64,000 nucleotides of DNA, from the NCBI RefSeq assembly GCF_025136295.1, contig NZ_CP062788.1, positions 2,212,501 through 2,276,500 on the forward strand, given 5' to 3'. Made by a program: the position numbers and the translations under genes. How positions within the stretch are numbered: position 1 is the first letter of the stretch; every line of letters starts with the position of its first letter. Below are positions 12,986-34,913 of this stretch, in pieces. This stretch comes from Aestuariispira ectoiniformans (lineage in GTDB: Bacteria > Pseudomonadota > Alphaproteobacteria > UBA8366 > Aestuariispiraceae). The notes beneath the pieces were generated by a model. It was not told the origin of the DNA. It saw only the letters and a program-made list of their open reading frames with translations, and did not search any database.

Positions 12986-13836
12986 GACAGATGAACGATC
13001 TTGCTGTCAGAGGACAATCGGCTGCGGAACTGGTTCCCGGTGCAAATCCTGCGCCCGGTCTGACCCAGATGCGGCCACCGTCCGCGGCATCATTGATGAA
13101 AAAACGGGACCCGATCGATTTTCACCTTTGTTCATCCAAAGGCAAAAACCGATTGCTGGAAGCGGCTGTGCCGCTTCTGGGGTTGAGCGTGCGTATTCGG
13201 AATCTCTATGAATTCTATGACGTTGAAGATTTGCATAGCCGGCTGGTGAATGAGATTCCGGTCTTTCGGCAGGAATTGGAAGAATATGGTTACGATGACG
13301 CCACGGTTCTGGCGGCGCGTTACATCCTGTGCTCCATAATTGACGAGTCTGTGTTGTCCCAGGCTTGGGGGGCGGAAAGTCTCTGGCCGGAACGGCCCAT
13401 GCTGTCGATTTTTCATAATGAAACCTGGGGTGGGGAAAAAGTATTCGCCATCCTGGACCGTGTCATGGACGAGGCGCATCGCTTCACGGATTTGCTGGAA
13501 CTGCTCTACTACAGTTTGGCGTTGGGGTTCGAGGGAAAATACCACGTCATGCACAATGGTCAGGCAAAGCTGGACCATCTGATGCACTCTGTTCATCTCA
13601 TCCTTGAAAAGCAGAGAGGGGAAGACCCCGACAAGCTGCTGAACCCCGAGCCGAATATTCACGACAGCAAACAGACGATGCCCTGGCGAATGCCCATATG
13701 GGCCGTTGTGGCCCTGGGAGTGGTCATCCTTGTCTCCACACATATCGTCTACGACCGGTCACTCTCAAACAAGATCGACGTTATCGTCGGCGAAATTGAA
13801 GCGTCGCTCGACATGACATTGGCAAAGGGCGAGTAA
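12982..13836 (+). CDS. tssL: T6SS inner-membrane protein TssL (DotU family)
   Basis: A 284-residue DotU/IcmH-type protein. A Pro-rich disordered N-terminus of about 60 residues precedes the helical cytoplasmic hook domain (LLEAAVPLLGLSVRIRNL, LCSIIDESVLSQAWG). A single C-terminal transmembrane helix (MPIWAVVALGVVILVSTHIV, about 232-251) follows, then a short periplasmic tail. There is no OmpA-like peptidoglycan-binding extension and no separate TagL or TagN-type gene. Peptidoglycan anchoring must therefore come from another component, perhaps the WD40-like lipoprotein at 22466. It overlaps tssH by one base. Confidence 0.93.
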   Translation: MRQMNDLAVRGQSAAELVPGANPAPGLTQMRPPSAASLMKKRDPIDFHLCSSKGKNRLLEAAVPLLGLSVRIRNLYEFYDVEDLHSRLVNEIPVFRQELEEYGYDDATVLAARYILCSIIDESVLSQAWGAESLWPERPMLSIFHNETWGGEKVFAILDRVMDEAHRFTDLLELLYYSLALGFEGKYHVMHNGQAKLDHLMHSVHLILEKQRGEDPDKLLNPEPNIHDSKQTMPWRMPIWAVVALGVVILVSTHIVYDRSLSNKIDVIVGEIEASLDMTLAKGE

Positions 13837-16508
13837 TGCTGAAAGTATCCAAGGAACGTATCCTCGAAAAGCTCAACTCCTATACGCGGGAGGCCTTGAA
13901 AAGTGCCAGCGAGGCAGCGATTGAACAAAGCCATTTTGAGGTGACCGTCAGTCACTATCTGCTTGCTTTGATCGCACAGCCGGGCGGGGACTGGGGAAAG
14001 ATTTTGTCTGCCCTCGGTGTATCCGCAGATCGCCTGGAAGCAAAGGTGAAGAAATCCCTGCAGCAGGCCCGGCGCGGCGCACAGGATTTGCCTGAATTCG
14101 CAACCCTTCTGATCGAGCTTCTGCAGGATGCTCTGATGCTTACCAATGCGGAACTGGGAGAGGAATATATCCGCAGTGGTGCCGTGTTTGCCGCGATTGC
14201 GCAAAACCCGGACCGCTACTGCCATTTCTATGTCTTCGCTGAATTCGAAGGACTTGATGCCAAAGCGTTTCTGGCCGGATTTACGGAATTGACGCGTGGA
14301 AGCATGGAAGGGACCGTAGATGCTGGCGTTGCAACGAAAGGGGCTCAGCCAGCATCCGAAACGGCACTGGAGAAATTCGGGCGCAACATCACGGCAGAAG
14401 CCAGGGACGGTCGGATTGATCCGGTGTTCTGCCGGGATATGGAAATTGCCCAGATGACGGACGTATTGTGTCGCCGCCGCAAGAATAATCCGATTTTGGT
14501 TGGCGATCCCGGGGTCGGGAAAACGGCCCTGGCGGAGGGGCTGGCAATCAAGATCGTCGAGGGTGATGTGCCGAAGGCCCTGCAGGGGGCGGCCTTGTGG
14601 GAATTGGATATGGGGGCACTGCAGGCGGGTGCTTCCGTCAAAGGCGAATTCGAACGGCGGTTGAAGGCAGTTTTGGATGAGGTCTTGAGCGCCCCGGAGA
14701 AAATTGTCCTGTTCATTGACGAAGCCCATACGTTGATTGGCGGTGGCGGGCAGGCCGGTGGATCGGATGCTGCAAATCTGTTGAAACCGGCTTTGGCGCG
14801 CGGACAGTTGCGGGCAATTGCTGCAACAACCTGGTCTGAATACAAAAAATACTTTGAAAAGGATGCTGCTCTGACGCGGCGCTTCCAGTTGATCAAGCTG
14901 GACGAACCAACCGTCGAACAATGCGTAACGATCCTGCGTGGCCTGCGGCCAAGTTATGAACAGACCCACAATGTTTATGTAACTGATGCCGCATTGAAAG
15001 CCGCAGCCGGTTTGTCGGCGCGATACCTCACCGGGCGACAGTTGCCGGATAAGGCTTTCGATGTGTTGGACACTGCTTGTGTACGGGTGGCGGCGGGGCA
15101 GTCCGCCCAACCGCGGCAACTGGACTGGCTGAATAAACGCGTTGCCATTTTGGAGAGAGAGCTGGCGGACCAGCAGAGGGACAGCCGCATGGCGGCAGAT
15201 GGGGCTGACACGGAACCGGGTAAAATAGCGGACGAAATTGCCTGCCTCCGCTCTGAGGCGGCGCAGTTGAAAGAGCGGTGGGAAAGCGAAAAGAAGATGG
15301 TTGGTGAGGTGATCGACCTGCGCGCCCGGATTGCCGAAAGTGACGATGATCAGGAGGAGGCACGTGGAGAAATTATGGATATTCTCTCCACACTTCGAAA
15401 CAGCCGGCAAGACGAGACAGCCTTGATCGATTATGAAGTCGGCTCGGAAACCGTGGCCGATGTCATTGCTGATTGGACCGGCATTCCGGCATCGGACATG
15501 AATGGCGATGAAGCCGAAAAGCTTATGTCGTTGGGCGATGGTCTGCGCGCCGTCATCAAGGGGCAGGACCAGGCACTTGGCGTTATCCACGACCGCCTGA
15601 AAGCCGCCCGGCTTGACCTGGTAAAAGGGGCGACACCCCGTGGTGTTTTTCTGCTGGTCGGGCCGTCAGGCGTGGGCAAGACAGAAACTGCAGAGCAGGT
15701 GGCGACGCATCTGTTCGGCGGCCGTCAGTTCCTGACGGTTATCAACATGTCGGAATATCAGGAAAAGCATACGGTATCCCGTCTCATCGGCTCGCCGCCG
15801 GGCTATGTGGGTTACGGTGAAGGCGGTATCCTGACGGAAGCCATTCGCAAGATGCCTTATTCCGTGGTTTTGCTGGATGAGGTGGAAAAAGCGCATCCTG
15901 ATGTTATGAACCTCTTTTATCAGGGGTTCGACAAGGGGCTTCTCAGCGATGGCGAGGGGCGGGAGATCGACTGTCGGAATGTCGTATTCTTTATGACATC
16001 GAACCTTGGCTCCGACGCCATCATGCAAAATCGCGAAACAGTCGACAGTGCGTCTTTGGATGCATTGGAAAAGGCACTGCGTCCGCATCTGCAGGAGCAT
16101 TTCAAACCGGCCCTGTTGGCGCGGATGCGGATCCTGTGCTTCAAGCCGCTGACCAGCGAAACCATCCGGGAAATTATCGGGCTGAAGCTACAGCTTCTGG
16201 CGGAACGCCTTCACGATGTACGCGGTCTCGACCTTACCTGGGATCAGCAGGCCATCGACTTGATAGAGCAACTGTGCACCCATTCGGAGAATGGTGCGCG
16301 CATGGTTGAACAGGTCATTGATCGCTGGATATTACCGCAAATTGCGGAAGAGGCATTGGAGCGGATATCGACAAGAACGCTGCTTGAATCGCTGGAACTC
16401 AGCGCGGTGGAGGGGGGCTTTGTCATGACATTCCTTCCCGCCCAGCAAGATAGCACGGAGGCGGAGGAAGACGGTAACGCTGCTGCCCTGGAGGTGAAAA
16501 GCGCATGA
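13836..16508 (+). CDS. clpV: T6SS sheath-recycling AAA+ ATPase TssH (ClpV)
   Basis: An 890-residue class I Clp ATPase. The N-domain (1-150) is followed by AAA1 with Walker A GDPGVGKT near residue 223 and Walker B VLFIDEAHTLIG. A coiled middle domain (about 420-540) comes next, then AAA2 with Walker A GPSGVGKT near residue 608 and the Clp signature GSPPGYVGYGEGG. It extracts TssC from contracted sheaths to allow reuse. Both nucleotide sites look intact. The gene overlaps tssL and the regulator gene at its ends, so it is co-translated within the operon. Confidence 0.96.
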   Translation: MLKVSKERILEKLNSYTREALKSASEAAIEQSHFEVTVSHYLLALIAQPGGDWGKILSALGVSADRLEAKVKKSLQQARRGAQDLPEFATLLIELLQDALMLTNAELGEEYIRSGAVFAAIAQNPDRYCHFYVFAEFEGLDAKAFLAGFTELTRGSMEGTVDAGVATKGAQPASETALEKFGRNITAEARDGRIDPVFCRDMEIAQMTDVLCRRRKNNPILVGDPGVGKTALAEGLAIKIVEGDVPKALQGAALWELDMGALQAGASVKGEFERRLKAVLDEVLSAPEKIVLFIDEAHTLIGGGGQAGGSDAANLLKPALARGQLRAIAATTWSEYKKYFEKDAALTRRFQLIKLDEPTVEQCVTILRGLRPSYEQTHNVYVTDAALKAAAGLSARYLTGRQLPDKAFDVLDTACVRVAAGQSAQPRQLDWLNKRVAILERELADQQRDSRMAADGADTEPGKIADEIACLRSEAAQLKERWESEKKMVGEVIDLRARIAESDDDQEEARGEIMDILSTLRNSRQDETALIDYEVGSETVADVIADWTGIPASDMNGDEAEKLMSLGDGLRAVIKGQDQALGVIHDRLKAARLDLVKGATPRGVFLLVGPSGVGKTETAEQVATHLFGGRQFLTVINMSEYQEKHTVSRLIGSPPGYVGYGEGGILTEAIRKMPYSVVLLDEVEKAHPDVMNLFYQGFDKGLLSDGEGREIDCRNVVFFMTSNLGSDAIMQNRETVDSASLDALEKALRPHLQEHFKPALLARMRILCFKPLTSETIREIIGLKLQLLAERLHDVRGLDLTWDQQAIDLIEQLCTHSENGARMVEQVIDRWILPQIAEEALERISTRTLLESLELSAVEGGFVMTFLPAQQDSTEAEEDGNAAALEVKSA

Positions 16509-18061
16509 GAATGCTTGAGGGCATGAACATACGCGATCACTTCGTTCTGCTCTGTAGTCTTGTGAATCAGACAAGGCTTGACGGCGTAATGGTGCAAAGC
16601 TGTGAACTCGTGGCGGATGTTGCCTGTTCGAACGTTGCTTTGCTCTATTTGCTGGACGCCACGGCACAGAATTTTGTGTTGTCGGCGGGATTTGCCCAAG
16701 GATTTTCGACCTGGGCACCGCCCAAGCTGGTTCATCCCATAGACCCGGTGGCAGGTGGAGCCTGCCCCCTGGCACAGGCTGTGATGACAGGTGATCCTGT
16801 GTGCCTGGATAGCGGGTTCAATGGCTATGATATCTCGCAGGTTGCCAAGGCGCTGGATGTGATCTCTGTGCCATCCTGCTTGGCGGTTATTCCTTTGAGG
16901 CGTACAAATAACAGCGTTTTGGGGGCTATGGCGGTCTTAAGTGAGAGGGCTATCGGCCCTTGGCTGAACCGTGGTGAAGCGCGTCTTGTCGTTAAATCGG
17001 TGGCCGCCGCCATAGAAACCCGGCAGGTCGTTGCCCGGCAGGAAACGGACCGCGTTTCCCTGGAAAAATCGCTTTTGCGTGTGGAACAGGACCGGTCCGC
17101 CTTGCGCCGCAATGTTTCGGCCAGCCTGACGCGGCGGTTGATTGGCCGGTCAAAACCGATGCAGGCCTTGCGCGAACGGGTTGCTCAAATGGCAGGCCAG
17201 AACGGTGCTGTCATGATTGAAGGCGGCGACGGAAGTGGCAAAGAGAAAGTCGCACGAGCGATCCACGAGCAATCCCGTTTTTCAAATGGCCCCTTTGTCT
17301 TTGCCGATTGCGCCTCGTTAACCGAGGACGTGTTTGCACCGGAACTCTTCGGATACAAACGTGGTGCGATCAAGGGCGTTGCCAGCGCCAGACAGGGACT
17401 GCTGCGGAAGGCGGCAGGCGGGACACTTTATCTCGATGGCCTGGAGCGGCTGGGTGATACCGCGCAGGCAATGCTGTTTCGGCTGGCCGATACGGGATTT
17501 TACCGGCCGTTGGGGAGTGAGCGGGATCGGCAGATATCGGCCCGTATCATCGCGTCGGCCTCGCCGGACCTGGCGCGCGCAGTGCAGGACAATGAGTTCC
17601 TGCCTGCGCTCTATTATCTCCTACGTCAGAATGTGGCGAAGGTGCCGCCTTTGGCCGAATGCCGGGAGGATATCGCCGATATCGTCCAGTCGGTACTGGC
17701 ACTTCTTCATCAGGAAGAGAAGAAAACGATCACGGTGGAACCGGCTTTATATGCCTATCTGACCGGTAGGGCTTTTCCCGGTGACCGGCGTGAATTGGAA
17801 GGTCTCACGCGGTTGGCGGCGTCGACCGTCGAAAACGGCGGGGTCCTGACCGCATCCCACTTCCGGTCCGTGGAAACCGGCACAACCCGTGATGCAGAAC
17901 ATTGCGAAACCATGCCGTTGCCGGAGGCGTTGGCATGGTTCGAACAAGACATGATTTCCCGGTCTCTTGCACAAGCGCATGGCAACCGGGCTATGGCAGC
18001 CGAACTTCTCGGGGTGCCGAAACGAACGTTGGCGGACAAATGCAAAAAATACGGACTTTAA
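16505..18061 (+). CDS. sigma-54-activator-like regulator with degenerate AAA+ motifs (VasH-like position)
   Basis: A 518-residue protein with an N-terminal GAF-like sensor region (about 15-165), a central AAA+ domain of the NtrC/VasH type and a C-terminal Fis-like helix-turn-helix (NRAMAAELLGVPKRTLADKC). Walker A keeps GGDGSGKE near residue 240. However, the sigma-54-contacting loop that should read GAFTGA is GAIKGV (about 286-291), and the Walker B Asp-Glu pair reads DG in GGTLYLDGLERL (about 305-315). It probably cannot remodel sigma-54 RNA polymerase and may act as a plain DNA-binding regulator. In other T6SS loci VasH activates hcp and vgrG units. It overlaps tssH by 4 nt and tagO by 22 nt. 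Confidence 0.85.
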   Translation: MRMLEGMNIRDHFVLLCSLVNQTRLDGVMVQSCELVADVACSNVALLYLLDATAQNFVLSAGFAQGFSTWAPPKLVHPIDPVAGGACPLAQAVMTGDPVCLDSGFNGYDISQVAKALDVISVPSCLAVIPLRRTNNSVLGAMAVLSERAIGPWLNRGEARLVVKSVAAAIETRQVVARQETDRVSLEKSLLRVEQDRSALRRNVSASLTRRLIGRSKPMQALRERVAQMAGQNGAVMIEGGDGSGKEKVARAIHEQSRFSNGPFVFADCASLTEDVFAPELFGYKRGAIKGVASARQGLLRKAAGGTLYLDGLERLGDTAQAMLFRLADTGFYRPLGSERDRQISARIIASASPDLARAVQDNEFLPALYYLLRQNVAKVPPLAECREDIADIVQSVLALLHQEEKKTITVEPALYAYLTGRAFPGDRRELEGLTRLAASTVENGGVLTASHFRSVETGTTRDAEHCETMPLPEALAWFEQDMISRSLAQAHGNRAMAAELLGVPKRTLADKCKKYGL

Positions 18062-18840
18062 TATTCGCCGCCGCCGGATGTCTGGTTGGCACGAGTGCGT
18101 GGACGGCGGAAACCATTTCACTTGACCCGGCGGATGTGGGGAAATGCTTTTCTGAGACGGACCGCCTCGACCGTCTAGGCTGTTATGACCGTCTTCTGGG
18201 GCGACCGGGAATTGATGATATCGGCCGGCCAGTGGCCACCGGCGGAACCGGTCTAACCGGTGAAACACCGCCTGCGGTCACGTTTGTGGAAGGCTTTCTG
18301 GCAACTTCAGCGACCACCGCCCAAGGGGTGCATGTCACCTTGTTGGACCGCAGTACCGGGGAGCCCGTCAAGGTTGGCGACGGGGTTGCCTCCTTGATAG
18401 ACGAGCCTGGTGGAGAACAGGGGGATGAGCGTCTTGGTCGCAACGCCGATGTCTATCTTGCCTTGAGGAATATAGATGACGCCCGGACTGACGGGGCGCT
18501 TCTGGTGAGTTGCGAAAACAATATCACACGGATGCGGATCAAGTGGGGAACTCCATTTGAGACGGCAACAGTTCCGGCAAGATTTCTGTTCGGCGACACA
18601 CTGACTGACGAGGGCAGCATCAAGCGCGTCCTGCGTGTCGGCGGGCAGGGGTATCTGCTTGAGAGCGCTCGTGGGTTGGAGAGCATCCGCCTATTACGAA
18701 AAATGATTGCAGGGTCGCGGGTGCAAATCTCGGCTGGTCGGGGGCAGGCTGTGCGGTCGCTGTTCTTTAATGCCAATGCATTGCGCGATGCGCTGCCAAT
18801 GGTGGGACGTCACTGTTCCTGGAAAGTAGGGAGCGCGTGA
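18040..18840 (+). CDS. T6SS-associated periplasmic protein TagO/VasI-like
   Basis: A 266-residue exported protein. A Sec signal peptide (MQKIRTLIFAAAGCLVGTSA) is followed by the VasI/TagO-type cysteine segment GKCFSETDRLDRLGCYDRLLG and a C-terminal region with RMRIKWGTPFETA. Reading the frame upstream to 17902 would give a signal-less extension inside the regulator gene, so the ATG at 18040 is chosen. VasI/TagO proteins are accessory factors of the membrane complex whose exact role is unclear. It sits directly before tssM, as in other loci that carry it. Confidence 0.8.
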   Translation: MQKIRTLIFAAAGCLVGTSAWTAETISLDPADVGKCFSETDRLDRLGCYDRLLGRPGIDDIGRPVATGGTGLTGETPPAVTFVEGFLATSATTAQGVHVTLLDRSTGEPVKVGDGVASLIDEPGGEQGDERLGRNADVYLALRNIDDARTDGALLVSCENNITRMRIKWGTPFETATVPARFLFGDTLTDEGSIKRVLRVGGQGYLLESARGLESIRLLRKMIAGSRVQISAGRGQAVRSLFFNANALRDALPMVGRHCSWKVGSA

Positions 18841-18854
18841 GCGGGTAGATCAAG

Positions 18855-21800
18855 ATGTTGATACGAATACTGAAATTTCTGAAAAAAATTCTGCGGCCGC
18901 TTCCGTTAATCGCCGTTGTTAGTGCGATTTTAGCGCTGATGGTCTATTTCTTCGGCGAAAAAATTGGCGCACGCGGTGTTTATCCCTTTGCTAATTCGGA
19001 CATACGGTTTTGGAGCGCCCTATGCTTTGCGGCGGTCGCTGTTCTCCTGGGTGGTTTTCTGCTGGTTCAGGCGATTTTTACTTGGCTCGCAAACCGGCGA
19101 AAGGCTGCGGACCGTGAGCCGACCGTAGAGGAGCTTGAAGCCTCGGCGATGAAGATGGTTTTCGACCGTGGGTTGAAGGTTATCCGCAACCGATGGTCGG
19201 GTGATGGGAAGGGGCTATACGGCCTGCCCTGGTATCTGGTCGTCGGGCGCGCCGAAAGTGGCAAATCAAGCCTAATTGAAAACAGTGACCTGCGGTTTCC
19301 CATCGATCATGAAATTGATCTGGAGTTGCGTGATCTGGCGGATCGTAAAGCAGCAGGGTTCTTTCGTTGGCGCGTTGCCGGGAATGAGGCCGTGTTGCTC
19401 GACCTCAACGGAGAATATTTCCGGGTCGATAAAGAGAGGACGTCGGTGCAGAATGTCCTCTGGGACAAGTTTCTGTCCAATCTCCAGCGTATCCGGCCGC
19501 GCCGACCCGTGAATGGTGTCGTTCTGGCGATTGATTTCGCTGAATTCCTTGGCATGACCGAGGCGGAACGTGATGAATATTCCCGCCAGGTGCGGGGCAT
19601 TGTCAATGAATTGGTCGAACGCCTTGGAACCCGGATGACCATTCACCTGACCTTTACAAAATTGGATCAGGTCGCTGGTTTCAAGGACTTTTTTGCGACT
19701 TTGAGCGCCGCGGACCGTGACATGCTTTACGGCTTCCACTTCCTTTGCGAAGGGCATCATACACCGGAATGGCTGACGCAATTCGAGACGCAGTATGAAG
19801 AGTATCTCGAACGCTTGCATCTGCGTCTCAAGAAGAAAATGCTGGAGCTGAAGTCAGCAAGCAGCCGACAGGAAGCATTTTCCTTCTATCGCGTTTTTCT
19901 TGGCTTGGAAGAGCCTTTACGGTCGTTTCTCGAAGCGGCGCTGTCTCCCGACAAATTCACGACGCCCCCCTTGGTTCGCGGAGTTTATTTCCTGAGCAAT
20001 CGGCAGGAAAACGCCCCACGCAATGCATTTCTCGAAGCGGTGGGGGAGCGGTATGCCATTCCAGACCCGCTTTATGGAACAAGCCAGGGGTCTTCCTATC
20101 CATATTTCGTGAATAACTTCCTCAAGAAAGTTGTTTTCCCCGAAGCCGGGCTCGCCGGCGACAATCAGAAGGCGGTTGAACGATATTGCAAACAAATGGC
20201 TGCCGCGGCGGTATTGGTTCTGGTTGTGTGTCTGGGCGGCGGGTTATACTGGAACAACCGATATGAGGCCAATTTGGCCTATGCCAATGATGTCCTGAAT
20301 AAGACCCGTGATTTCACCGGACGGGGCCTGAGGGTCACATACGACATTACCGGACAGCGACTTCTAACGCCGCTTAACCATATCCGGGAGGCAATGTCGG
20401 CATTTAAAGATTATCGCGACACCGGACCCGTCGCGGCACAGCTAAGCCTGTATCAGGGGCGACGGATTGGCCCGCTGGTCGATAAAGCCTATCGCAATAT
20501 TCTCAATACCCATTTTGCACCCACGATCATCAAAGGGCTGGAACGGGACCTGCGCACCGTTTGTCCGAAAGGCGGCGATACAGAGCTGGGTTACCTACGT
20601 GTCTATCGCATGATGGCAGACCTGAAGGGGCGTGATAATCGGGCGGTCGAGCGGTATTTCAACGCGTTCTGGACAGACAAGGTTATCGGCAGCCGGGACA
20701 AGGTTGCACAATTGAATTCCCATCTGGCCTACATGCTCGAAGAATCTCCTCAGGCATACGACGTGAACCCGTCGGTAGTACTCCAGGCGCAGCGCGACCT
20801 GGGCAAGTTGACGCCGTTCCGCCGGGTTTACCACTCGATGCGCGAACTGACGGAACGCCAGTTGCCCAATCCGCTGGAATTCTCCCGTTCCGTCGGGGCG
20901 GCATTTGATCTTGTATATCAGCCATCACCAACAACGGAAGGGACGGCCGATACCTCAGGCGCCAATGGTCGTGGCAGCGGTCTGGACGGTTGTGGCGTTA
21001 TCACGGAACGCAGCTTTGAGGGCAGTCCTTTCCGCATTCCGCGCTTCTTCACAAAAGCACAGTTCCACGACTTTTTTGTCCCGGAGATTGCCCGGGTTGC
21101 CAGCATTGCAGCAGATGACCTCTGGGTGCTCGGGCAACTGGAAGACAATCAGTATTCACAGGCGGATTACGAGGAAATCCGGTCCAAGGTAAGGGACAAT
21201 TACGTAGAGGAATATATCGGAACCTGGCGGCAATCCTTGAATATGATGAAAGTTCAGGATTTTGAGGATATCCGGCATGCGACGGAAGTTCTGCATACCT
21301 TGTCGGGCACGAATAGTCCCATGCGCCGTGTGGCAGAACTCGTCTCTGAAAATACAGTCATTTACATGCCGGAGGCGAAGGGTGCTCAGGGTGAAGGTGT
21401 CAACCTGACGGATGTGAAGCTGGAACCCAACCGCGAGGCCGGATTGCGTATTGCGGCGGCTTTCGCCCTGATACAGGGGATGCTGAACGAACGGCCGGAT
21501 GGCAATCCATCGAATATGGATCAGATCCAGGAGGCTCTAAAGGCTGTTTACGATTATATGAAATCGGTGCGGGATGCGCCTGACCCGAATGCAAAAGCAC
21601 TTGAGTTGGCTATTCAACGGGCCCAATTGGCCGGTGAAGACCCGATTTTCGTGCTGCAGCGCATTGCCGACCGGGCGCCAGCACCATTTGACCGGCAATT
21701 GAGGCATGTGGCGAGCGAGGCCTGGCGTACGATCATGGCCGCCGCGACGGTCGAGCTTAACCGGAAGTGGCAAAACGAGGTTTACGGAACCTATCAGCGC

Positions 21801-22451
21801 CTCATTGCCGGGAAGTATCCATTTGATCGTCGCAGCAGTCAGGACCTGCCTTTGCAGGACTTCAAAGAGTTTTTCCGGCCGGGCGGTATCCTTGATAGCT
21901 TTTATAGCCAGGAGTTGTTGACCTTTGTCGATGTGAAGACGGGTGAACCAAAGGTGATTGACGGTCAGTCACTCCCCGTGAACCGCAGTTTTTCCAGACG
22001 CTTGCGTCATGCGAACAACATTACCAAAAGCTTTTTCGACCAGACCGGCGAGCTGGCGGTGGAATTCAAGGTCTCGCCGGTCGGCATGAGTGCCAATCTC
22101 AGCCGGGCTGTTCTCAACTTTGAAGGCCAACTGATTGTCAGCAGTCACGGTCCGAGCCGGCCGATCACGGTTTTTTGGCCGAATATTATTGACGGTCCGG
22201 CCTCGTCGCGTGTGGACCTGGCGCCGCTGGCCGGCAAAGGACATGCGTTGTCAAAGCAGTTTGACGGCTCCTGGTCCTGGTTACGCCTATACGACAGTGC
22301 AAGCAAGGCGAACCAGAGTGAAAGCACCGTCGATATCAGCTTTGCCAGTAGTAATGGCCAGTCGGCGATATTCCGCATTCGGCCCGAGGCTCGCGTGAAT
22401 GTCTTTTTCAACAGTCCTATCAGTAATTTCTCACTTCCCAGTCATCTATAA
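18855..22451 (+). CDS. tssM: T6SS inner-membrane core protein TssM (IcmF family)
   Basis: A 1198-residue IcmF/VasK protein. Two N-terminal transmembrane helices (about 17-34 and 52-76) flank a short loop, then a cytoplasmic NTPase-like domain with Walker A GRAESGKS near residue 131-138. A third transmembrane helix (about 446-466) leads to a long periplasmic domain with the IcmF-related and DUF1215-like C-terminal beta domain that contacts TssJ. Length and order are typical. The Walker A motif is intact by pattern, which is variable among TssM proteins. Confidence 0.96.
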   Translation: MLIRILKFLKKILRPLPLIAVVSAILALMVYFFGEKIGARGVYPFANSDIRFWSALCFAAVAVLLGGFLLVQAIFTWLANRRKAADREPTVEELEASAMKMVFDRGLKVIRNRWSGDGKGLYGLPWYLVVGRAESGKSSLIENSDLRFPIDHEIDLELRDLADRKAAGFFRWRVAGNEAVLLDLNGEYFRVDKERTSVQNVLWDKFLSNLQRIRPRRPVNGVVLAIDFAEFLGMTEAERDEYSRQVRGIVNELVERLGTRMTIHLTFTKLDQVAGFKDFFATLSAADRDMLYGFHFLCEGHHTPEWLTQFETQYEEYLERLHLRLKKKMLELKSASSRQEAFSFYRVFLGLEEPLRSFLEAALSPDKFTTPPLVRGVYFLSNRQENAPRNAFLEAVGERYAIPDPLYGTSQGSSYPYFVNNFLKKVVFPEAGLAGDNQKAVERYCKQMAAAAVLVLVVCLGGGLYWNNRYEANLAYANDVLNKTRDFTGRGLRVTYDITGQRLLTPLNHIREAMSAFKDYRDTGPVAAQLSLYQGRRIGPLVDKAYRNILNTHFAPTIIKGLERDLRTVCPKGGDTELGYLRVYRMMADLKGRDNRAVERYFNAFWTDKVIGSRDKVAQLNSHLAYMLEESPQAYDVNPSVVLQAQRDLGKLTPFRRVYHSMRELTERQLPNPLEFSRSVGAAFDLVYQPSPTTEGTADTSGANGRGSGLDGCGVITERSFEGSPFRIPRFFTKAQFHDFFVPEIARVASIAADDLWVLGQLEDNQYSQADYEEIRSKVRDNYVEEYIGTWRQSLNMMKVQDFEDIRHATEVLHTLSGTNSPMRRVAELVSENTVIYMPEAKGAQGEGVNLTDVKLEPNREAGLRIAAAFALIQGMLNERPDGNPSNMDQIQEALKAVYDYMKSVRDAPDPNAKALELAIQRAQLAGEDPIFVLQRIADRAPAPFDRQLRHVASEAWRTIMAAATVELNRKWQNEVYGTYQRLIAGKYPFDRRSSQDLPLQDFKEFFRPGGILDSFYSQELLTFVDVKTGEPKVIDGQSLPVNRSFSRRLRHANNITKSFFDQTGELAVEFKVSPVGMSANLSRAVLNFEGQLIVSSHGPSRPITVFWPNIIDGPASSRVDLAPLAGKGHALSKQFDGSWSWLRLYDSASKANQSESTVDISFASSNGQSAIFRIRPEARVNVFFNSPISNFSLPSHL

Positions 22452-22465
22452 GAGGGGCTTTCGTT

Positions 22466-23860
22466 ATGACGAATGTCGTTTTGCGTAACATTGCCATTTT
22501 GGCCACCGGAGCGTTCATCGTCGGCTGCTCTGGGAATATCCCGCAGGCAGAGAAGACATACACGGCCGCCTTGAGTGCAAAAGAGGAAGCCCAGCTGCGC
22601 AGCAAGGGGGTATTCCTAAGCGATGCGGAATCACGAAAGCTGGATGAAATAGAGCGCAGGAAGCTTGCGAAAGCGATAGACCTTCGGGTTTTAGGGAGTG
22701 CTTCGCAGCCACAGACACCGCTGGCAGGCTTCGGATTTACCGCCGGTACCCAAAACAGCTTTGTCATCTACCGTGACGGCAGTCTCCATGTATTCACCCC
22801 GGTGGGAGAAGAAACGCAATTCGAAGCAGTTGCGGGGCGGCTTGACAGGGCGTTTGCGGATTCCGGACGGATTGTCGCGGCCAGTCCACGCGGCACGATG
22901 TTGGTTCTGGAGAAGTCCGACCTGTCCCAGCAAACGGTCCTCCGACCGCAAACCAGCACGTTCCATCAGGTTCGCCTCTTTGATGTTGCAACGGTACCCG
23001 GCACGCCTTACCTGGCGGCGGCGGCAGAGGGGCGACGTCTTGAGATATGGGATATGACATCGGGGGAACTCGTCGAGGCCGCGGAATTTGAGACCGTGCA
23101 ACCGCGAAGCCTGCTTCAAGGCTGTCCGATGGATGAAATGGTCTTTGGGACGAATGAGGGGCAGGTTCGCCAATGGAGTAAAGGCGGCGGCAGCAAGGTT
23201 CTCTACAGCCATGACGGCCCGGTTCTGGACGTTGCCGAAGATACAAAGCATCACCTGCTTATTTCGGCGGCGAAGGATGGAACGGTTATCTTCTATGATC
23301 GGGAAAAGGGCTCGATTGTAAAACGGATTGAATTCGACGCCGCCGTGTACAAGGTGCATGTCTCTCCGGATCAGCGATATGCCGTCGTCGTACCGTCTTT
23401 GGGGAAACCTTATCGCATTGACCTGGACAGTCTGGATGAAACATCCCTGGCCCTGAAGTCAGGGAACAGCATCACCAAAGGCCGTTTCCTCCATGATGGA
23501 GCGTGGTTCATTGCCCAACAGGGAGGCAATGGGCTCTATATCTGGGATATGCGATCGGGTGCAGCCATTGCCGATATCAAACGTGAACATAGCGGTGGCA
23601 TTCTCGACTTTGCCGTTTCGGACAGGCTGGGGCTGTTGGTTCTCGCCACGCCTGACAACAAAATCTCATACTGGGACATGAACAAGCGGGGGTATGTTTC
23701 CAGCCCGATCCAGGTTGATGAAGATATTCTCGGCGTGGCGTTGAATGATCGGGGTGACCGGGCCATAGCGGCTTTGGCCAACGGCCAGATGCTGAGCTGG
23801 AAAGTGCATGACGGCGTAACAAAATCTTTGGTGCTGAGTAAAGATGACTTTTCCGGTTGA
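22466..23860 (+). CDS. WD40-like beta-propeller lipoprotein in the T6SS locus
   Basis: A 464-residue predicted lipoprotein with lipobox FIVGC (Cys about residue 21). After a helical, charged stretch (about 30-75) the rest consists of WD40-type blades: repeats ending in LEIWDMTSG, VIFYDREKG, LYIWDMRSG, ISYWDMNKR and MLSWKVHDG. It lies between tssM and tssA, overlapping tssA by 17 nt, so it belongs to the operon. It is not one of the 13 core components and I do not recognise it as a named Tag protein. An outer-membrane or periplasmic scaffold for the TssJLM complex is a reasonable guess, since no peptidoglycan-binding Tag protein is present. Confidence 0.8.
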   Translation: MTNVVLRNIAILATGAFIVGCSGNIPQAEKTYTAALSAKEEAQLRSKGVFLSDAESRKLDEIERRKLAKAIDLRVLGSASQPQTPLAGFGFTAGTQNSFVIYRDGSLHVFTPVGEETQFEAVAGRLDRAFADSGRIVAASPRGTMLVLEKSDLSQQTVLRPQTSTFHQVRLFDVATVPGTPYLAAAAEGRRLEIWDMTSGELVEAAEFETVQPRSLLQGCPMDEMVFGTNEGQVRQWSKGGGSKVLYSHDGPVLDVAEDTKHHLLISAAKDGTVIFYDREKGSIVKRIEFDAAVYKVHVSPDQRYAVVVPSLGKPYRIDLDSLDETSLALKSGNSITKGRFLHDGAWFIAQQGGNGLYIWDMRSGAAIADIKREHSGGILDFAVSDRLGLLVLATPDNKISYWDMNKRGYVSSPIQVDEDILGVALNDRGDRAIAALANGQMLSWKVHDGVTKSLVLSKDDFSG

Positions 23861-25226: not shown

Positions 25227-25278
25227 CAGGCGGAAATCCGCCTGCGCGGGCGGAAATCCGCCTGAAATCAAATTTTTA
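25227..25278 (+). terminator. two tandem GC palindromes followed by a T-rich run
   Basis: CAGGCGGA-AA-TCCGCCTG (25227-25244) is followed within 3 nt by a second copy of the GGCGGAAATCCGCC palindrome (25248-25264), then by AAATCAAATTTTT. Either hairpin could end the tssA transcript and shield the separately expressed hcp unit. A duplicated palindrome is unusual for a simple terminator and could also act as an attenuator or protein site. Confidence 0.5.
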
Positions 25279-25449
25279 AAATATAGTGATGACTGTGAAA
25301 TTTTTAAAGAAAACAATAGCTTAAGGTGAAATAGGAAAAAGATGCTCGATACGCATTTTCTTTGAGATTCTGCACAGGGGCTTCTGCGAAGGTTTTCCCA
25401 TCGCCAATGAAACGGCAATGGTTTTGACTAATTTTGAGGAACAATCTCT

Positions 25450-25965
25450 ATGCCAGTCCAAGCATATATTTCGATCGAGGGTGAAACGCAGGGTCTTATC
25501 TCTCAGGGTGCGACCACCTTTGACAGTGTTACCAACGAGTGGCAGGCCGGACACGAGGACGAAATCCTTGTCCATGCCTTCGATCATGCTGTGGTCACGC
25601 CGCGTGATCCGCAATCCGGCAACCCGACCGGCACGCGTATTCATCAGCCGTTTAAATTCACCACGTCCCTGAATAAGGCCGTGCCGCTGATGTATAACTC
25701 GCTGGTCACCGGTGAACTGCTGCCGAAGGTCATCCTTAACTGGTATCGTGTTCAGGCTTCCGAACAGGTGAACTTCTTCAGAACCGAACTGGAAGAGGCC
25801 CTGATTGTCGACATCAATTGTGCCATGCCGCATGTGAAGAATGTCGACAGCAAGGATTACACCCAGCTTGTAGACGTGAAAATGACCTACCGGAAAATCA
25901 TCTGGGAGCATGTTGTTGCTGGGACCTCCGGGTCCGACGACTGGCGTGCGCCGGTTCAGTCCTGA
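25450..25965 (+). CDS. hcp: T6SS inner tube protein Hcp (TssD)
   Basis: A 171-residue Hcp1-family protein. Landmarks are MPVQAYISIEGETQG, the HAFDHAVVTPRDPQSG loop, HQPFKFTTSLNKAVPLMYNSL and the C-terminal YRKIIWEHVVAGTSGSDDW. Hexamers stack into the tube propelled by the TssBC sheath and can carry small effectors in the lumen. An AGGAA ribosome-binding site precedes it. It opens the payload half of the locus, set apart by 235 nt from tssA and followed by a strong folded element. Both fit a highly expressed, separately regulated unit. Confidence 0.97.
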   Translation: MPVQAYISIEGETQGLISQGATTFDSVTNEWQAGHEDEILVHAFDHAVVTPRDPQSGNPTGTRIHQPFKFTTSLNKAVPLMYNSLVTGELLPKVILNWYRVQASEQVNFFRTELEEALIVDINCAMPHVKNVDSKDYTQLVDVKMTYRKIIWEHVVAGTSGSDDWRAPVQS

Positions 25966-26091: not shown

Positions 26092-26364
26092 ATGTCTCAA
26101 AAGCCCATTGCCCGCCTGAACGACCAGCATAGCTGCCCTGTCAAAGGACATGGAACGACACCAATCGTTCAGGTTGCCGGCAGATCGACATGTGACGGTC
26201 GTCCGGTTGCCACAATCGGCGACAAAACAGGATGTGGGGCGACGATTATACAAGGGTCGTCAGTTGCGAAAGTGGACGGCAGGCCGGTGGCTTATCTTGG
26301 CTGTTCCACCGATCACGGTGGGCGGATCATCAGTGCTTCGGCAACGCAGAAGGTGGAGCCTTAG
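26092..26364 (+). CDS. PAAR-domain spike tip protein
   Basis: A 90-residue stand-alone PAAR protein. It has the metal-binding His/Cys pattern of the fold (LNDQHSCPVKGHG, DKTGCG, YLGCSTDHGG) and the repeated beta-turn segments VAGRSTCDGRPVATIG and SSVAKVDGRPVAYLG. It sharpens the VgrG trimer and can hold effectors. It has no toxin extension, so effectors here must load by contact or through the DUF4123 adaptor. The effector 1 gene starts 60 nt after its stop. Confidence 0.95.
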   Translation: MSQKPIARLNDQHSCPVKGHGTTPIVQVAGRSTCDGRPVATIGDKTGCGATIIQGSSVAKVDGRPVAYLGCSTDHGGRIISASATQKVEP

Positions 26365-26423
26365 GGAGGCACGATCGCAGGGGCGGGTATGCCTCTTGGG
26401 GAAGCGACGGAAGCAGAGCGCAG

Positions 26424-28160
26424 ATGAGAAACTACACACCAACTGTTGAGGACCTTGCCTGGCTGGCGGAAAACCGGCCGGAGAAGTTCTCCAGTGCAAC
26501 TCAAACGCTGCGCTCGCTCGGGCATGCGGTGGCGCATGGTGACGATACGCCGGCTAGGGAAGTCCAGAAACTGACCGTGGATGCGCAATATGGCGATTAT
26601 TTGGGCAATGGCGGTGAGGCCCTGACGGAAAGCCCGATCCCCGCAGAGCCGACAGAGGATGCAGTGCGCCATGACCCCGTTTTCGGTGCGGCCTGTGTTG
26701 AATGCGGCAGCGGGACGCCCTGTTGCCTTAAAACACTGACATTGTCCTGCAAGCATGATCACAATGCGCCCCGGAAACTGACTATTCCGGCGGATGACCC
26801 GAAGAAGCCCGCGGTCCTGGCCGTTGTTGCCGATCACAAGGATACCGGCGGATATCTATACGAGCAGATTAACGCCAGCCTGGGACATGAGAGTAAGGCC
26901 GAATGCAGGAGCACGGGCCTGAAGCTTCGGCTGACCGGCCCGGGGGTTGAGGAAATAGGCCCTGCGGAGGCGTTTGAATGCAAGCTGCCCTTCCATATTG
27001 CAGATGATGAAGAAGATAGGTCCAATCTGGAAAAGCTCGGCCTTGTGATGGATACCTTCGTCTGGGATGACCCGCAGAAGTCGGCGACTATATATGACCT
27101 GTCTCCCGCTGATGTCTGTGTGCCTTTCAACGGCTTCAACAGCAAAATTCATCTTTATCCGCCGATGTCCGTACAGGCGGAAAATCTGGGGCTGACGCTT
27201 TCCGGGCGCTACAACACCAACAATGATTTCAAGTTTACCGCAGCTTTTTCCGGCTCCCTGGCTGCGGAATACGGGTCGCGGAAATATGAGATCGGGGCCA
27301 AGGTAGAAACCGACAGTCATGACAAGAACCGGTCGAAATCCGCAGTACCCTTCCTGGACGGTATCCTGAAGGCGTTGAGTTCGATCAGTTCCGGCGAGAC
27401 AAAAGGCAGGTCGGGCGGGAAGGCCAATAGCGGGGAGGTCATCGAGACCTATTCCTATATTGAGGTGAGCCATGTTCAGCATCTGAAAAACTGGACATAT
27501 ACGCTGGCCGAAAGTCCCGGTGACTACAGCCGTGTCGGTATTGAAGGGAATATCACTCTCGGCTTCGACCCTTTCCTGAAAGTTAAGCTCTACCTCGACG
27601 TCTTGGATGCGCTTTTGATTGCGGCCAATGGCGTCGCACCGGCCCTGGCACAAGCCATTCGCCAAGCCCGTGAACTGGGCGCGAAAGGCTTCAGGAACAA
27701 AGACAAGACCCTTGAGTTTACTGCGGGGGCCGCAGTCTTCATCAAGGGAGAAGGCGATCTCGGAACGGGAACCATCACACTGTCCCGCAAACCCGACCAG
27801 GACGACTGGGAGGCCACCGGCCACTGTGGCGGCAGCGTCGCCCTGACCCTTGGCGTAGAGATCAAGGGGAAGGCGAAGGTTTATGTTGTCGAGGGCACGT
27901 TGGATATGAATGGGCATGCAACGAGCAAATTGTTGCTGGATATGGCTGCAATTTCAAAATCTGAGCGACAGGCGCTTGAAAAGTTGAAACTGAAGTTGTC
28001 TTGGGGAGGTATTAAACTTCAGTACAAAGCAAATATGAAGGGTCAGGTGAAATTAGGAAGGGTTAAAGGGAGTGTAGGTGAAGACTATGCAGGAACGCTA
28101 TCGGTTTTGGACAAAGATATCCTCGGTAAAGACGGGGTTCTGTATGAGCGCAAGATATGA
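26424..28160 (+). CDS. candidate T6SS effector 1 (shared N-terminal marker domain, unknown C-terminal domain)
   Basis: A 578-residue protein I do not recognise. Residues 1 to about 110 match effector 2 without gaps for 100 residues (32 of the first 39 identical, including YTPTVEDLAWLAEN and FSSATQTLRSLG). They end in HDPxFGxACxECxSxTPC (His83, Cys91, Cys94, Cys100). The rest is beta-rich, with a helical segment near 395-430 (LYLDVLDALLIAANGVAPAL) and amphipathic strands after it. No nuclease, lipase, peptidoglycan-hydrolase or ADP-ribosylation motif is visible, and no signal peptide. The start at 26424 is chosen because the marker domain begins there. A longer frame from 26232 would overlap the PAAR gene. 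Position after PAAR and before exported cognate-like genes supports an effector role. Confidence 0.7.
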   Translation: MRNYTPTVEDLAWLAENRPEKFSSATQTLRSLGHAVAHGDDTPAREVQKLTVDAQYGDYLGNGGEALTESPIPAEPTEDAVRHDPVFGAACVECGSGTPCCLKTLTLSCKHDHNAPRKLTIPADDPKKPAVLAVVADHKDTGGYLYEQINASLGHESKAECRSTGLKLRLTGPGVEEIGPAEAFECKLPFHIADDEEDRSNLEKLGLVMDTFVWDDPQKSATIYDLSPADVCVPFNGFNSKIHLYPPMSVQAENLGLTLSGRYNTNNDFKFTAAFSGSLAAEYGSRKYEIGAKVETDSHDKNRSKSAVPFLDGILKALSSISSGETKGRSGGKANSGEVIETYSYIEVSHVQHLKNWTYTLAESPGDYSRVGIEGNITLGFDPFLKVKLYLDVLDALLIAANGVAPALAQAIRQARELGAKGFRNKDKTLEFTAGAAVFIKGEGDLGTGTITLSRKPDQDDWEATGHCGGSVALTLGVEIKGKAKVYVVEGTLDMNGHATSKLLLDMAAISKSERQALEKLKLKLSWGGIKLQYKANMKGQVKLGRVKGSVGEDYAGTLSVLDKDILGKDGVLYERKI

Positions 28161-29091
28161 AATCGGCATTCTTTTTGGAATTTTTGTGATTCTAGCGTCA
28201 GGAGTGAGCGCTGTGGGCAGCGAGGTTGATATCAAGGGTTATTGGATCGGCATGGATTTCGAGACCAAGCAGGCCGAGCTAATTCCTTACTTTCATGATG
28301 AGCCTCCATATGGGGTAGATAACCCGTTGGGCGGAAAAGGAGGGCAGGCCTCCAATCTCAACGCCAACAACAGTTTTCTGCAGGGAAGCACGCCGGTCGG
28401 GATACAGTTCCGGTTTCTGCCTGATCCTAATGCAGACTTGGAGCCACAGGTCCGTGTTCGTTTCCACTATTGGCCGGAGGATGAATGGGTCACGGCCTTC
28501 GAGGAGACGTCAACCGGCTATGCCACGGATATAACCTTCACCCGTGAGACTGACGAGGAGGGTCATGAAATTGTCCGGGTCGCGGAAGATATTCAGGGGC
28601 AGCCCTGGTTGACTGCGACGCCTCTTCGGAAGGTCGACGGACCCGAGGGGTGGCATAGCTATGCCCTGGAATTGAATTCCGACTTTAGTTTTCCGGAGCG
28701 GCAATGGACCACCGGCCAAAAGCTAGAAAATAACAAGAAAACTCAACAAGCCATCGAGGCGGAATTCCAAAAAGCATACGACATATTCGCGCAGAAAGAC
28801 CCCGACAAGCTGTTCGCTTACTACAAGGCAAATATGGAAAATGACGGGGCCGTATACGGAGATAGCGCGAAAGAGTGGTTTAATGACTCATTGTCGGAGT
28901 TTGTGAGCCCAGACTACGACTATGAGCCCTTTGATGCCTCGAAATCCGAATTGCGTATTTTCGGTGATGGGCGGTTAGCGACACTGCATCCCTCGCCAAT
29001 TCGTATCGTCAGCGACAAGTATAAGCAGTGGTATTCACCAATGCTCTATTTCTGGAAGGACGCCGACGGCAATTGGCATCCGCGGGATTAG
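28144..29091 (+). CDS. immunity-like exported protein 1A
   Basis: A 315-residue protein with a Sec signal peptide (hydrophobic stretch IGILFGIFVILASGVSA), then a soluble domain rich in Trp/Tyr/Asp with WIGMDF, RFLPDP, WPEDEWVTAF and the C-terminal LYFWKDADGNWHPRD. The start at 28144 overlaps the effector 1 stop by 17 nt, so the two are translationally coupled, as expected of effector and immunity. It is most similar to its neighbour 1B and shares a 137-bp identical block with it (28477-28613). It is distantly related to the 2A-2D group. Family function is not known to me; periplasmic immunity is inferred. Confidence 0.7.
   Translation: MSARYEIGILFGIFVILASGVSAVGSEVDIKGYWIGMDFETKQAELIPYFHDEPPYGVDNPLGGKGGQASNLNANNSFLQGSTPVGIQFRFLPDPNADLEPQVRVRFHYWPEDEWVTAFEETSTGYATDITFTRETDEEGHEIVRVAEDIQGQPWLTATPLRKVDGPEGWHSYALELNSDFSFPERQWTTGQKLENNKKTQQAIEAEFQKAYDIFAQKDPDKLFAYYKANMENDGAVYGDSAKEWFNDSLSEFVSPDYDYEPFDASKSELRIFGDGRLATLHPSPIRIVSDKYKQWYSPMLYFWKDADGNWHPRD
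28477..28613 (+). repeat. 137-bp block identical to 29456-29592 (gene-conversion tract)
   Basis: The block is base-for-base identical to the matching part of immunity gene 1B, while the flanking sequence of the two genes differs at many silent and coding positions. It encodes the segment from WPEDEWVTAF to QGQPWLT. The mismatches bounding it are at 28476 and 28614. Confidence 0.85.
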
Positions 29092-29125
29092 GGAAATGTC
29101 GGTTTCTGGGCATATGGGGGATATG

Positions 29126-30067
29126 ATGGTGTGCAGTCGTAAAGCAGGGGTTTTCTTGGCTGTCCTGGTCGGACTTGCCGGGAATGCCTGTGCCGGAGAC
29201 AAGGTGAGCCTTGATGGCTACTGGATTGGCATGGATTTTGGCGTCAAACAGGCCGAACTGATCCCATACTATCAAGATAAGCCGCCTTATGGGATTGGCC
29301 GACCTCTCGGAGGGCAAGGAGGATTAAGCAGCAATATAAATGCGAACAACAGCTTTGTTCCAGGCACTACGTCCGTCAAATTGCAGTTCCGGTTCTTGCC
29401 TGACCCTGACGTGGATCTGGTGCCGCAGGTCCGGGTTCGTTTCCACTATTGGCCAGAGGATGAATGGGTCACGGCCTTCGAGGAGACGTCAACCGGCTAT
29501 GCCACGGATATAACCTTCACCCGTGAGACTGACGAGGAGGGTCATGAAATTGTCCGGGTCGCGGAAGATATTCAGGGGCAGCCCTGGTTGACGGCGACGC
29601 CGGTGCGGAAGGTTGACGGACCGGACGGCTGGTACAGCTATGCGCTGGACCTGAAGTCTGATTTTGACTTTCCTGAGCGGGAATGGACCACAGGGCAGCA
29701 ATTGGACGACAACGCCAAAACCCGTAAGGCTGTCGAGGCGGAATTTCGGAGAGCCTATGATATCTTCGCGCAGAAAGACCCGGACAAGACCTTCCAGTTT
29801 TATAAGCCTCAAATGATTAAAGACGGCGCTTCCTATGGAGATGACGCGCGGGAATGGTTCGATGACATATATATCCAATTGGTGCATGAAAGTGTGGAGT
29901 ATCAGCCCTATGATGCGTCCGAGTCGGAGCTTATGATCCTTGGTGATGGCCGTCTTGCGACCCTGCATCCTTCTCCCATTCAGATCAAAATAAAAACGGG
30001 GCAGATTTTCACACCATTCCTCTATTTCTGGAAGGACGCGGATGGTAAATGGCATCCCCGTGATTGA
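29126..30067 (+). CDS. immunity-like exported protein 1B
   Basis: A 313-residue paralogue of 1A with its own signal peptide (GVFLAVLVGLAGNACA). It keeps WIGMDFGVKQAELIPYY, WPEDEWVTAF and the C-terminal LYFWKDADGKWHPRD. The ATG at 29126 is preferred because a GGGGGG ribosome-binding site ends 5 nt upstream; in-frame ATGs at 29096, 29114 and 29123 are alternatives. It follows 1A directly and precedes effector 2. It may neutralise the same effector, a related effector of another strain, or be an orphan immunity gene. The N- and C-terminal thirds have diverged from 1A, but the middle was homogenised. Confidence 0.7.
   Translation: MVCSRKAGVFLAVLVGLAGNACAGDKVSLDGYWIGMDFGVKQAELIPYYQDKPPYGIGRPLGGQGGLSSNINANNSFVPGTTSVKLQFRFLPDPDVDLVPQVRVRFHYWPEDEWVTAFEETSTGYATDITFTRETDEEGHEIVRVAEDIQGQPWLTATPVRKVDGPDGWYSYALDLKSDFDFPEREWTTGQQLDDNAKTRKAVEAEFRRAYDIFAQKDPDKTFQFYKPQMIKDGASYGDDAREWFDDIYIQLVHESVEYQPYDASESELMILGDGRLATLHPSPIQIKIKTGQIFTPFLYFWKDADGKWHPRD
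29456..29592 (+). repeat. 137-bp block identical to 28477-28613
   Basis: Second copy of the conversion tract, in immunity gene 1B. The mismatches bounding the identity are at 29455 and 29593. The tract is in the same reading frame in both genes. Confidence 0.85.
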
Positions 30068-30160
30068 CAGTTGGATGTTTTCTTTGGGTGATTTCTTGTG
30101 TAAGTAGCGTGAGCGGTATCTTGGTACAGCAATTCAATCCTTACCGGACAGAGTGTTTCA

Positions 30161-32973: not shown

Positions 32974-32997
32974 ACGATGTTCGGGGGGATTGCAAAA

Positions 32998-33939: not shown

Positions 33940-33945
33940 GTTGAT

Positions 33946-34896: not shown

Positions 34897-34913
34897 GTGT
34901 ATTGGGGGGAACA

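Follow-up and report, generated by a model that had tools for sequence, protein, structure and literature searches.

A VasH-type regulator without GAFTGA in the type VI secretion cluster of Aestuariispira ectoiniformans and its predicted sigma-70-type cargo promoters

Introduction

A stretch of 64,000 nucleotides from Aestuariispira ectoiniformans (contig NZ_CP062788.1, positions 2,212,501 to 2,276,500 of the forward strand), referred to here as the window, carries a gene cluster for a type VI secretion system (T6SS). Between the tssH and vasI genes of this cluster, where VasH is found in the T6SS clusters that we compared, lies an open reading frame (ORF) of 518 amino acids (16505..18061, + strand; PF00158, E 5.2e-42; HTH_8, E 1.1e-8) that encodes a VasH-type regulator. 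VasH of Vibrio (Sfa2 in Pseudomonas) is a sigma-54 activator of the T6SS, and the window regulator shares with it both the tssH-vasI position and the AAA+/Fis layout. It is established that the opening of sigma-54 promoters requires ATP hydrolysis and the GAFTGA loop of the bacterial enhancer-binding protein (bEBP) (PMC8855297; PMC3804575); the window regulator lacks this loop and can be described as a pseudo-bEBP. We hypothesise that it is a functional regulator of the VasH lineage that no longer activates sigma-54 and that drives T6SS cargo operons through a sigma-70-type holoenzyme instead, a reading to which comparative sequence analysis leads us to give a probability of roughly 0.7.

Enhancer-binding proteins that lack GAFTGA and operate at sigma-70 promoters have been described (PMC10274813; PMC3162934). 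The NtrC of Rhodobacter capsulatus has no GAFTGA and is reported to act via sigma-70 and to need the binding of ATP, not its hydrolysis (as cited in PMC10274813), and both Vibrio cholerae VpsR and Caulobacter NtrC are described as GAFTGA-less bEBPs that regulate sigma-70-dependent promoters (PMC10274813). Walker A and Walker B of Caulobacter NtrC are required for growth on ammonium (PMC10274813), whereas the Walker B glutamate is lost in the window regulator. R. capsulatus NtrC resembles the present protein in being a bEBP without GAFTGA but differs from it in that the loop is deleted there and substituted here, and in that it is a response regulator of nitrogen control and not part of a T6SS. 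It acts from tandem distal sites. VpsR controls biofilm genes with cyclic di-GMP, and we know of no link between VpsR and a T6SS. Among the matches listed in a search of the open-licence literature, covering titles and the openings of abstracts, we found no description of a GAFTGA-less VasH, nor of a T6SS version of such a bEBP with its rewired regulon. The GAFTGA-less kind of bEBP is already known, and what is new here is the DNA side, namely the operator and the promoters.

Results

A sequence-only reading of the locus had proposed that the regulator has lost GAFTGA and the Walker B glutamate while its GAF region, Walker A and Fis-type DNA-binding domain remain. We aligned the protein with four orthologues from Thalassospira and with 15 other VasH-type proteins (L017-L021 and L115-L124). 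Gene context was checked for the first five: annotation places L017, L018 and L021 in T6SS clusters, and L019 and L020 adjoin ClpV-like ORFs. The alignment bears out both losses and adds two more, in the arginine finger and sensor I. Loop 1 reads GAIKGV in place of GAFTGA (17363..17380, + strand, like all intervals written with two dots; context KRGAIKGVA), Walker B reads LDG in place of LDE (17432..17440, context GTLYLDGLERL) and the arginine-finger region reads FLPALYYLLRQ (17597..17629) where the 15 other proteins have FRxDL. GAIKGV, LDG and FL are present in 5/5 members of the clade formed by the window copy and the four Thalassospira copies and in 0/15 of the other VasH-type proteins, in all of which the loop, the glutamate and the arginine finger are intact. 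The first arginine of FRxDL...R is gone from all five copies (FL for FR), whereas the second is gone from the window copy alone and retained in the four Thalassospira copies; the change of the N of NC to D is likewise confined to the window copy. The sensor I region, IIASASPDL in the window (17546..17572), has SAS or SAR in the clade versus ATH (ATY in one) in the 15 other proteins, as part of ATHxxL or ATYxxL. Retained, as had been proposed, are Walker A (GGDGSGKE, 17222..17245) and the Fis-type helix-turn-helix (17936..18058; PF02954, E 1.1e-8, match to residues 478-516). The case for a GAF region is weaker than claimed, since no Pfam match to a GAF domain was found in the regulator at E<=1e-3 and, at a lax limit, the window protein gives GAF_3 at E 0.056 (14.3 bits, below the Pfam cut-off of 27) and one of four members gives GAF at E 0.021. 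A structure prediction made from three sequences had a mean predicted local distance difference test score of 39.8. With the loop, the Walker B glutamate and the arginine finger lost, the regulator should bind ATP at most; with GAFTGA absent and Walker A and the DNA-binding domain kept, its sequence matches the GAFTGA-less bEBPs exemplified by R. capsulatus NtrC, VpsR and Caulobacter NtrC.

The window genome has one rpoN match, with a standard RpoN box (ARRTVAKYRE); the absence of sigma-54 sites described below is therefore not accounted for by an altered RpoN. Among 12 strong matches to the sigma-54-activator domain in this genome, the regulator scores lowest (146.9 bits, versus 175.4-249.3 bits for the other 11); two partial matches have about 27 bits each. 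LDE and FR are kept in 11/11 of the other strong activators, and the loop is intact or nearly so (GAF[TS]GA, GAYTGA, GAFTNA) in 10/11, being missing in one protein that we read as NtrX-like (L011). Sigma-54 regulation thus exists in the organism, but this regulator seems, from its motifs, to have left it. About 1.8 kb past the end of the window (L067:1799), close to the gene of a further activator (L009), lies a good sigma-54-like site, TGGCACAGCCTTTGCG, with a score of 14.7.

The motif changes are shared with relatives. An orthologue 59% identical to the window protein lies at the matching cluster position on a Thalassospira marina plasmid, and a pattern scan based on a two-row alignment, over one genome for each of 84,980 species, gave two more, in Thalassospira sp. 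MCCC 1A01428 and T. profundimaris S25-3-2; the same scan with the window protein alone as query gave no orthologue. In the taxonomic family of MCCC 1A01428 an orthologue is present in 4/29 genomes (E <= 1e-50). One of the genomes used below (G434) has its match at the T. marina plasmid coordinates and is taken as the same replicon, and another (G441) is counted as Thalassospira here, its regulator being 96% identical to that of T. profundimaris. The four Thalassospira orthologues are about 60% identical to the window protein. No orthologue was found at E <= 1e-60 in the 13 other genomes of the family of the window organism, nor in the 42 other searched genomes of its order, which include those 13, and with the first 220 residues as query none was found in the 384 other genomes of a class sample. 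A profile search of a class sample of 385 (E <= 1e-47) matched 30 genomes; the matches listed, the window gene aside, start at query position 129 or later and are read as generic activators. In a tree rooted at the midpoint, the five regulators form one clade (support 100/100) on a long stem, which groups with 12/15 of the VasH-type proteins (99/97) and apart from the 11 other activators of the window genome.

Whole-gene ratios of nonsynonymous to synonymous substitution rates (dN/dS) lie at 0.05-0.085 in the six comparisons within Thalassospira; the four comparisons with the window copy give 0.11-0.15, rough values since dS is saturated there. For the AAA+ domain the ratio is 0.05-0.09 in the pairs where dS could be estimated. 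The Fis-type helix-turn-helix is the most conserved domain, with a dN below that of both other domains in 10/10 pairs. These ratios indicate that the gene is under purifying selection. Because the four Thalassospira orthologues carry GAIKGV, LDG and FLP and dN/dS is low, the changes are inherited and not the product of chance or sequencing error, and a loss private to the window genome is ruled out by the same orthologues. A decaying relic without function is the least probable of the readings that we considered, close to negligible: several catalytic residues are lost, and two more in the window copy than in its relatives, but dN/dS stays at 0.05-0.15 across protein divergence of up to 41%, the frame is intact in five genomes and the operators described next are conserved together with the gene. 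We reject the idea on the strength of dN/dS.

Upstream of hcp (25450..25965; PF05638, E 1.8e-26) lies a tandem palindrome, GGCGGAAATCCGCC-TGCGCG-GGCGGAAATCCGCC, with a 20-bp period (25229..25262), whose general form is GGYGR-N4-YCGCC twice; T. marina has the same layout at two places. A search pattern, GGYGRNNNNYCGCC-N6-GGYGRNNNNYCGCC, was written from these three sites and run on 43 genomes. The exact form occurs at 15 places, in 5/5 genomes with the regulator (the window genome, G000, has three, G423 three, G424 two, G434 three and G441 four) and in 0/38 relatives without it; since three of the 15 sites served to write the pattern, 12 are independent. Behind the 15 exact sites are hcp (three), DUF4123-type genes (seven), genes of a family of 435-454 amino acids (four) and a remnant of that family (one), where the DUF4123-type calls come from the T. 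marina annotation, from BLAST to such genes or from N-terminal likeness. Upstream of tssB no tandem operator was seen, either in the window or in any of the four Thalassospira loci that were scanned.

Relaxing the pattern costs its specificity. With up to two mismatches, chance matches appear in 39/43 genomes, one or two mismatches being common in most, and in G450 the best among the matches listed are already at two. One match in G434 with a single mismatch (C1:3366958) was rejected as an operator and taken as chance, the promoter core being missing in both orientations. A looser pattern of one half-site plus the core of the promoter element described below matched 5/5 genomes with the gene (3-7 sites each) and 27/38 without it (1-3 each), and is not specific by itself; it exposed a fourth site in the window genome, at 2854827, with one operator half only.

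The pattern of co-occurrence suggests that the tandem operator is likely to be the binding site of the regulator. It is highly unlikely, though conceivable, that the operator belongs to another regulator of these genomes and that the degenerate VasH is a passenger. Fis-type regulators are abundant in the window genome, and binding to the operator is a prediction. However, the exact sites are confined to the five gene-bearing genomes among the 43, the gene is under purifying selection, and in canonical VasH clusters a similarly arranged tandem palindrome precedes hcp.

We compared 21 promoters behind operators: 14 with exact sites, the T. profundimaris site inside the cluster (one exact half), four with one mismatch and two with two, the last six having been picked for their operator-like look from among the matches with one or two mismatches. 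A site for integration host factor (IHF) was sought as WATCAANNNNTTR with 0-2 mismatches, 30-85 nt 3' of the operator. In the window it is AAACAATAGCTTA (one mismatch; 25311..25323), 48 nt past the operator, and the IHF-like site begins 47-48 nt after the operator in 20/21 promoters, with a mean of 1.14 mismatches over the 21 versus 2.53 (standard deviation 0.14) in 300 shuffles. Further on, 106-108 nt after the operator in 21/21, stands an element centred on TGC, whose core in the window is GAGATTCTGCACA (25364..25376). The anchor of this element was found with patterns derived from the data, so that the conservation of the TGC, and of the C two bases further on, is in part built in, which is not true of the other positions; for L096 and L106 the anchor was set by hand, the first pattern having given 86 and 94 nt. 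Numbered from this anchor, 12 non-redundant promoters have TTT at -14 to -12 (10, 11 and 11 of 12), G at -5 (11/12), A at -4 (12/12), A at +5 (11/12), T at +11 (11/12), G at +15 (10/12), A at +18 (11/12) and T at +22 (11/12), giving the formula TTT-N6-GA-N2-CTGC-N-CA ... G-N2-A-N3-T, an element of a kind that we do not recognise. One further exact site, L101, which is outside the 21, likewise has the IHF-like site at 48 nt and the element.

The three downstream positions of this formula may be read as an extended -10, in which G +15 would be the -14 G, A +18 the -11 A and T +22 the -7 T. In the window they fall on the hexamer GAAGGT and its extended -10 G (25388..25393), which would place the start of transcription near 25400, and G -5 and A -4 may be the third and fourth bases of a -35 hexamer with an 18-bp spacer. 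The sequence-only reading had suggested a sigma-70-type or a purely architectural regulator, on the model of Rhodobacter NtrC, and the layout speaks to the second of these. That the protein represses, or only shapes DNA, at the operator is in our view unlikely. Its DNA-binding domain is the best conserved part, and the GAFTGA-less Caulobacter NtrC represses some promoters (PMC10274813). However, an operator ending at a fixed 106-108 nt before the TGC, with an IHF-like site in between, is the layout of an enhancer and not of steric repression, and so constant a spacing of operator, IHF-like site and promoter favours activation over a purely architectural role.

Sigma-54 sites were scored with an approximate matrix, taking the best site between operator and start codon and comparing it with shuffles. 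One of the 21 promoters reached a shuffle fraction below 0.05 (median 0.285), in agreement with the proposal that the regulator should not open sigma-54 promoters, as its predicted targets have no recognisable -24/-12 elements. None of nine upstream regions scanned in the window and in T. marina, those of tssB, hcp and vgrG included, has a best sigma-54 score that beats shuffles (fractions 0.17-0.79). For comparison we took nine upstream regions from three canonical T6SS clusters on Vibrio and Photobacterium plasmids, where good sites were found in 4/4 hcp regions and in the region of one sel1-repeat gene upstream of tssB, a promoter picked for its score (five sites, scores 10.3-16.0, shuffle fractions 0-0.01); no good site was found in the three tssB regions and one PAAR region of these clusters (best 0.6-2.3).

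The same five canonical promoters have tandem palindromes 19-22 bp apart that match GRGCAA-N4-TTGCYC, a pattern derived from V. scophthalmi, with at most two mismatches, and in 3/5 the -24 box is preceded at 15-16 nt by an IHF-like site. In outline, then, both systems have this operator layout, an IHF-like site and the cargo genes, but the sigma-54 box is confined to the canonical one. Upstream of hcp in L111, L112 and L113 (Vibrio/Photobacterium), the GRGCAA-N4-TTGCYC-like palindromes are a candidate canonical VasH operator; as of 2018 the binding sequences of V. cholerae VasH are given as not yet determined (PMC5963220).

The regulator might still be a sigma-54 activator that tolerates GAIKGV, the conserved element being a divergent -24/-12 box. 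This would suit the TGC, which stands 12 nt after a conserved T, at the place of a -12 box, and the conserved T itself, which follows the 16-mer operator at 93-95 nt, much as the -24 follows one operator copy at 92 nt in three canonical promoters; upstream operators and IHF are also typical of sigma-54 architecture. Yet GG is present at the -24 place in 0/21 promoters, the scores fail to beat shuffles in 20/21, and RpoN itself is standard. With the Walker B glutamate and the arginine finger missing too, the ATP hydrolysis that sigma-54 opening requires should fail, and we hold continued sigma-54 activation to be improbable.

The genes of the cluster stand in the order tssB-C-E-F-G-tagH-J-K-L-H-regulator-vasI-M-(WD40 protein)-A-hcp, with TssA below its NCBIfam cut-off. 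The 5' neighbour of the regulator is tssH (ClpV; 13836..16508; TIGR03345, 1074.5 bits), which overlaps its start by 4 bp, and the 3' neighbour is vasI/tagO (18040..18840), whose start we place at an in-frame ATG at 18040 and whose position matches that of annotated TagO/VasI genes in T. marina and in the Vibrio/Photobacterium clusters. Then follow tssM (IcmF; 18855..22451; PF14331, PF06761, PF06744) and, between tssM and tssA, a gene for a WD40-type beta-propeller protein (22466-23860), a place taken in T. marina by a hypothetical protein. Eight ORFs of 316-642 amino acids that lie between the PAAR gene and vgrG (26232-35924) have no Pfam match at E<=1e-3; they are candidate effector/immunity genes of the hcp operon.

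The 435-454-amino-acid family found behind operators has the N-terminus VELRGSGSYLLIGRRLSFGQL, a conserved N-terminal part and a variable C-terminus. Its loci are L109:5201-6565, L110:5479-6834, G000:C1:2854827 (L175), L096, L097 and L106. One member matches Ntox50 weakly (E 4.5e-4; 21.3 bits, cut-off 22.2); for the three members scanned, Pfam (E<=1e-3) gave nothing further and NCBIfam (E<=0.1) nothing at all. It is likely to be a polymorphic family of T6SS effectors. At L101:3001-3300 in G441 an operator, IHF-like site and element precede the start of a gene of this family, with no ORF above 187 amino acids among those listed, and the G424 counterpart has a family ORF of 435 amino acids. Elsewhere in G441, at L102:1487-5636, two similar operator-DUF4123 units stand in tandem with near-identical promoters.

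Discussion

We propose that the regulator keeps the job of VasH while the sigma factor has been exchanged, and that it works in the manner of R. capsulatus NtrC. It would bind ATP without turning it over efficiently and, in the ATP-bound form, assemble on both operator half-sites; IHF would bend the DNA between operator and promoter, and the regulator would contact, at a weak promoter of the extended -10 kind, an RNA polymerase that carries a sigma-70-type factor. The operons for T6SS cargo (hcp, chaperones and effectors) would then be turned on and the structural operon would not. By analogy with V. cholerae VasH, whose GAF domain interacts with Hcp (PMC9972734), the N-terminal domain may sense Hcp. 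An involvement of IHF has a parallel in V. fluvialis, where IHF activates the hcp (tssD2) promoters that also require VasH (PMC5963220). The sequence-only reading was right on the loss of the motifs and is probably right on its consequence.

The comparison with Vibrio VasH shows how much would have been kept. Tandem palindromes upstream of hcp, a cargo regulon that extends beyond the main cluster and an IHF-like site (in 3/5 of the canonical promoters) are shared; the window regulator differs in the loss of GAFTGA, the Walker B glutamate and the arginine finger, in the missing -24/-12 sites, in its half-site (GGGCGR-like here, GRGCAA-like there) and in an IHF-like site that lies farther from the promoter. 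It is possible, and we put it forward tentatively, that the whole T6SS cargo regulon changed its sigma factor, activator and promoters moving together from sigma-54 to a sigma-70-type (or other) factor while the enhancer layout was kept.

Several observations weigh against activation through a sigma-70-type holoenzyme. The match to a -35 is poor, with only the GA of TTGACA at an 18-bp spacer, the -10 hexamers are weak, and L104, one of the 12 non-redundant promoters, does not fit the -10; it also has the sole better-than-chance sigma-54-like score (9.2), although away from the conserved place. The spacer contains an unexplained conserved CTGC.CA stretch, the TGC is placed as in a -12 box, and about 34 nt separate the end of the IHF-like site from the T at -12, a layout similar but not identical to the canonical one. 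Half of the operator has decayed at the T. profundimaris site inside the cluster, and the operator is assigned to the regulator by co-occurrence and by its likeness to canonical VasH operators. Finally, the promoters are not fully independent, as one family supplies four of the five genomes, three of them named Thalassospira.

Individual GAFTGA-less enhancer-binding proteins are on record, but the fate of their promoters is seldom visible. Here an activator, with its likely operators and about 20 predicted target promoters, can be set beside the sigma-54 form of the system, which makes the order and the requirements of a sigma-factor switch testable. The 34-bp tandem operator predicts T6SS cargo genes anywhere in these genomes, and the analysis offers a candidate VasH operator for Vibrio. 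If activator and promoters did change their sigma factor together, the system would be a natural intermediate that shows how an ATP-driven enhancer system turns ATPase-independent.

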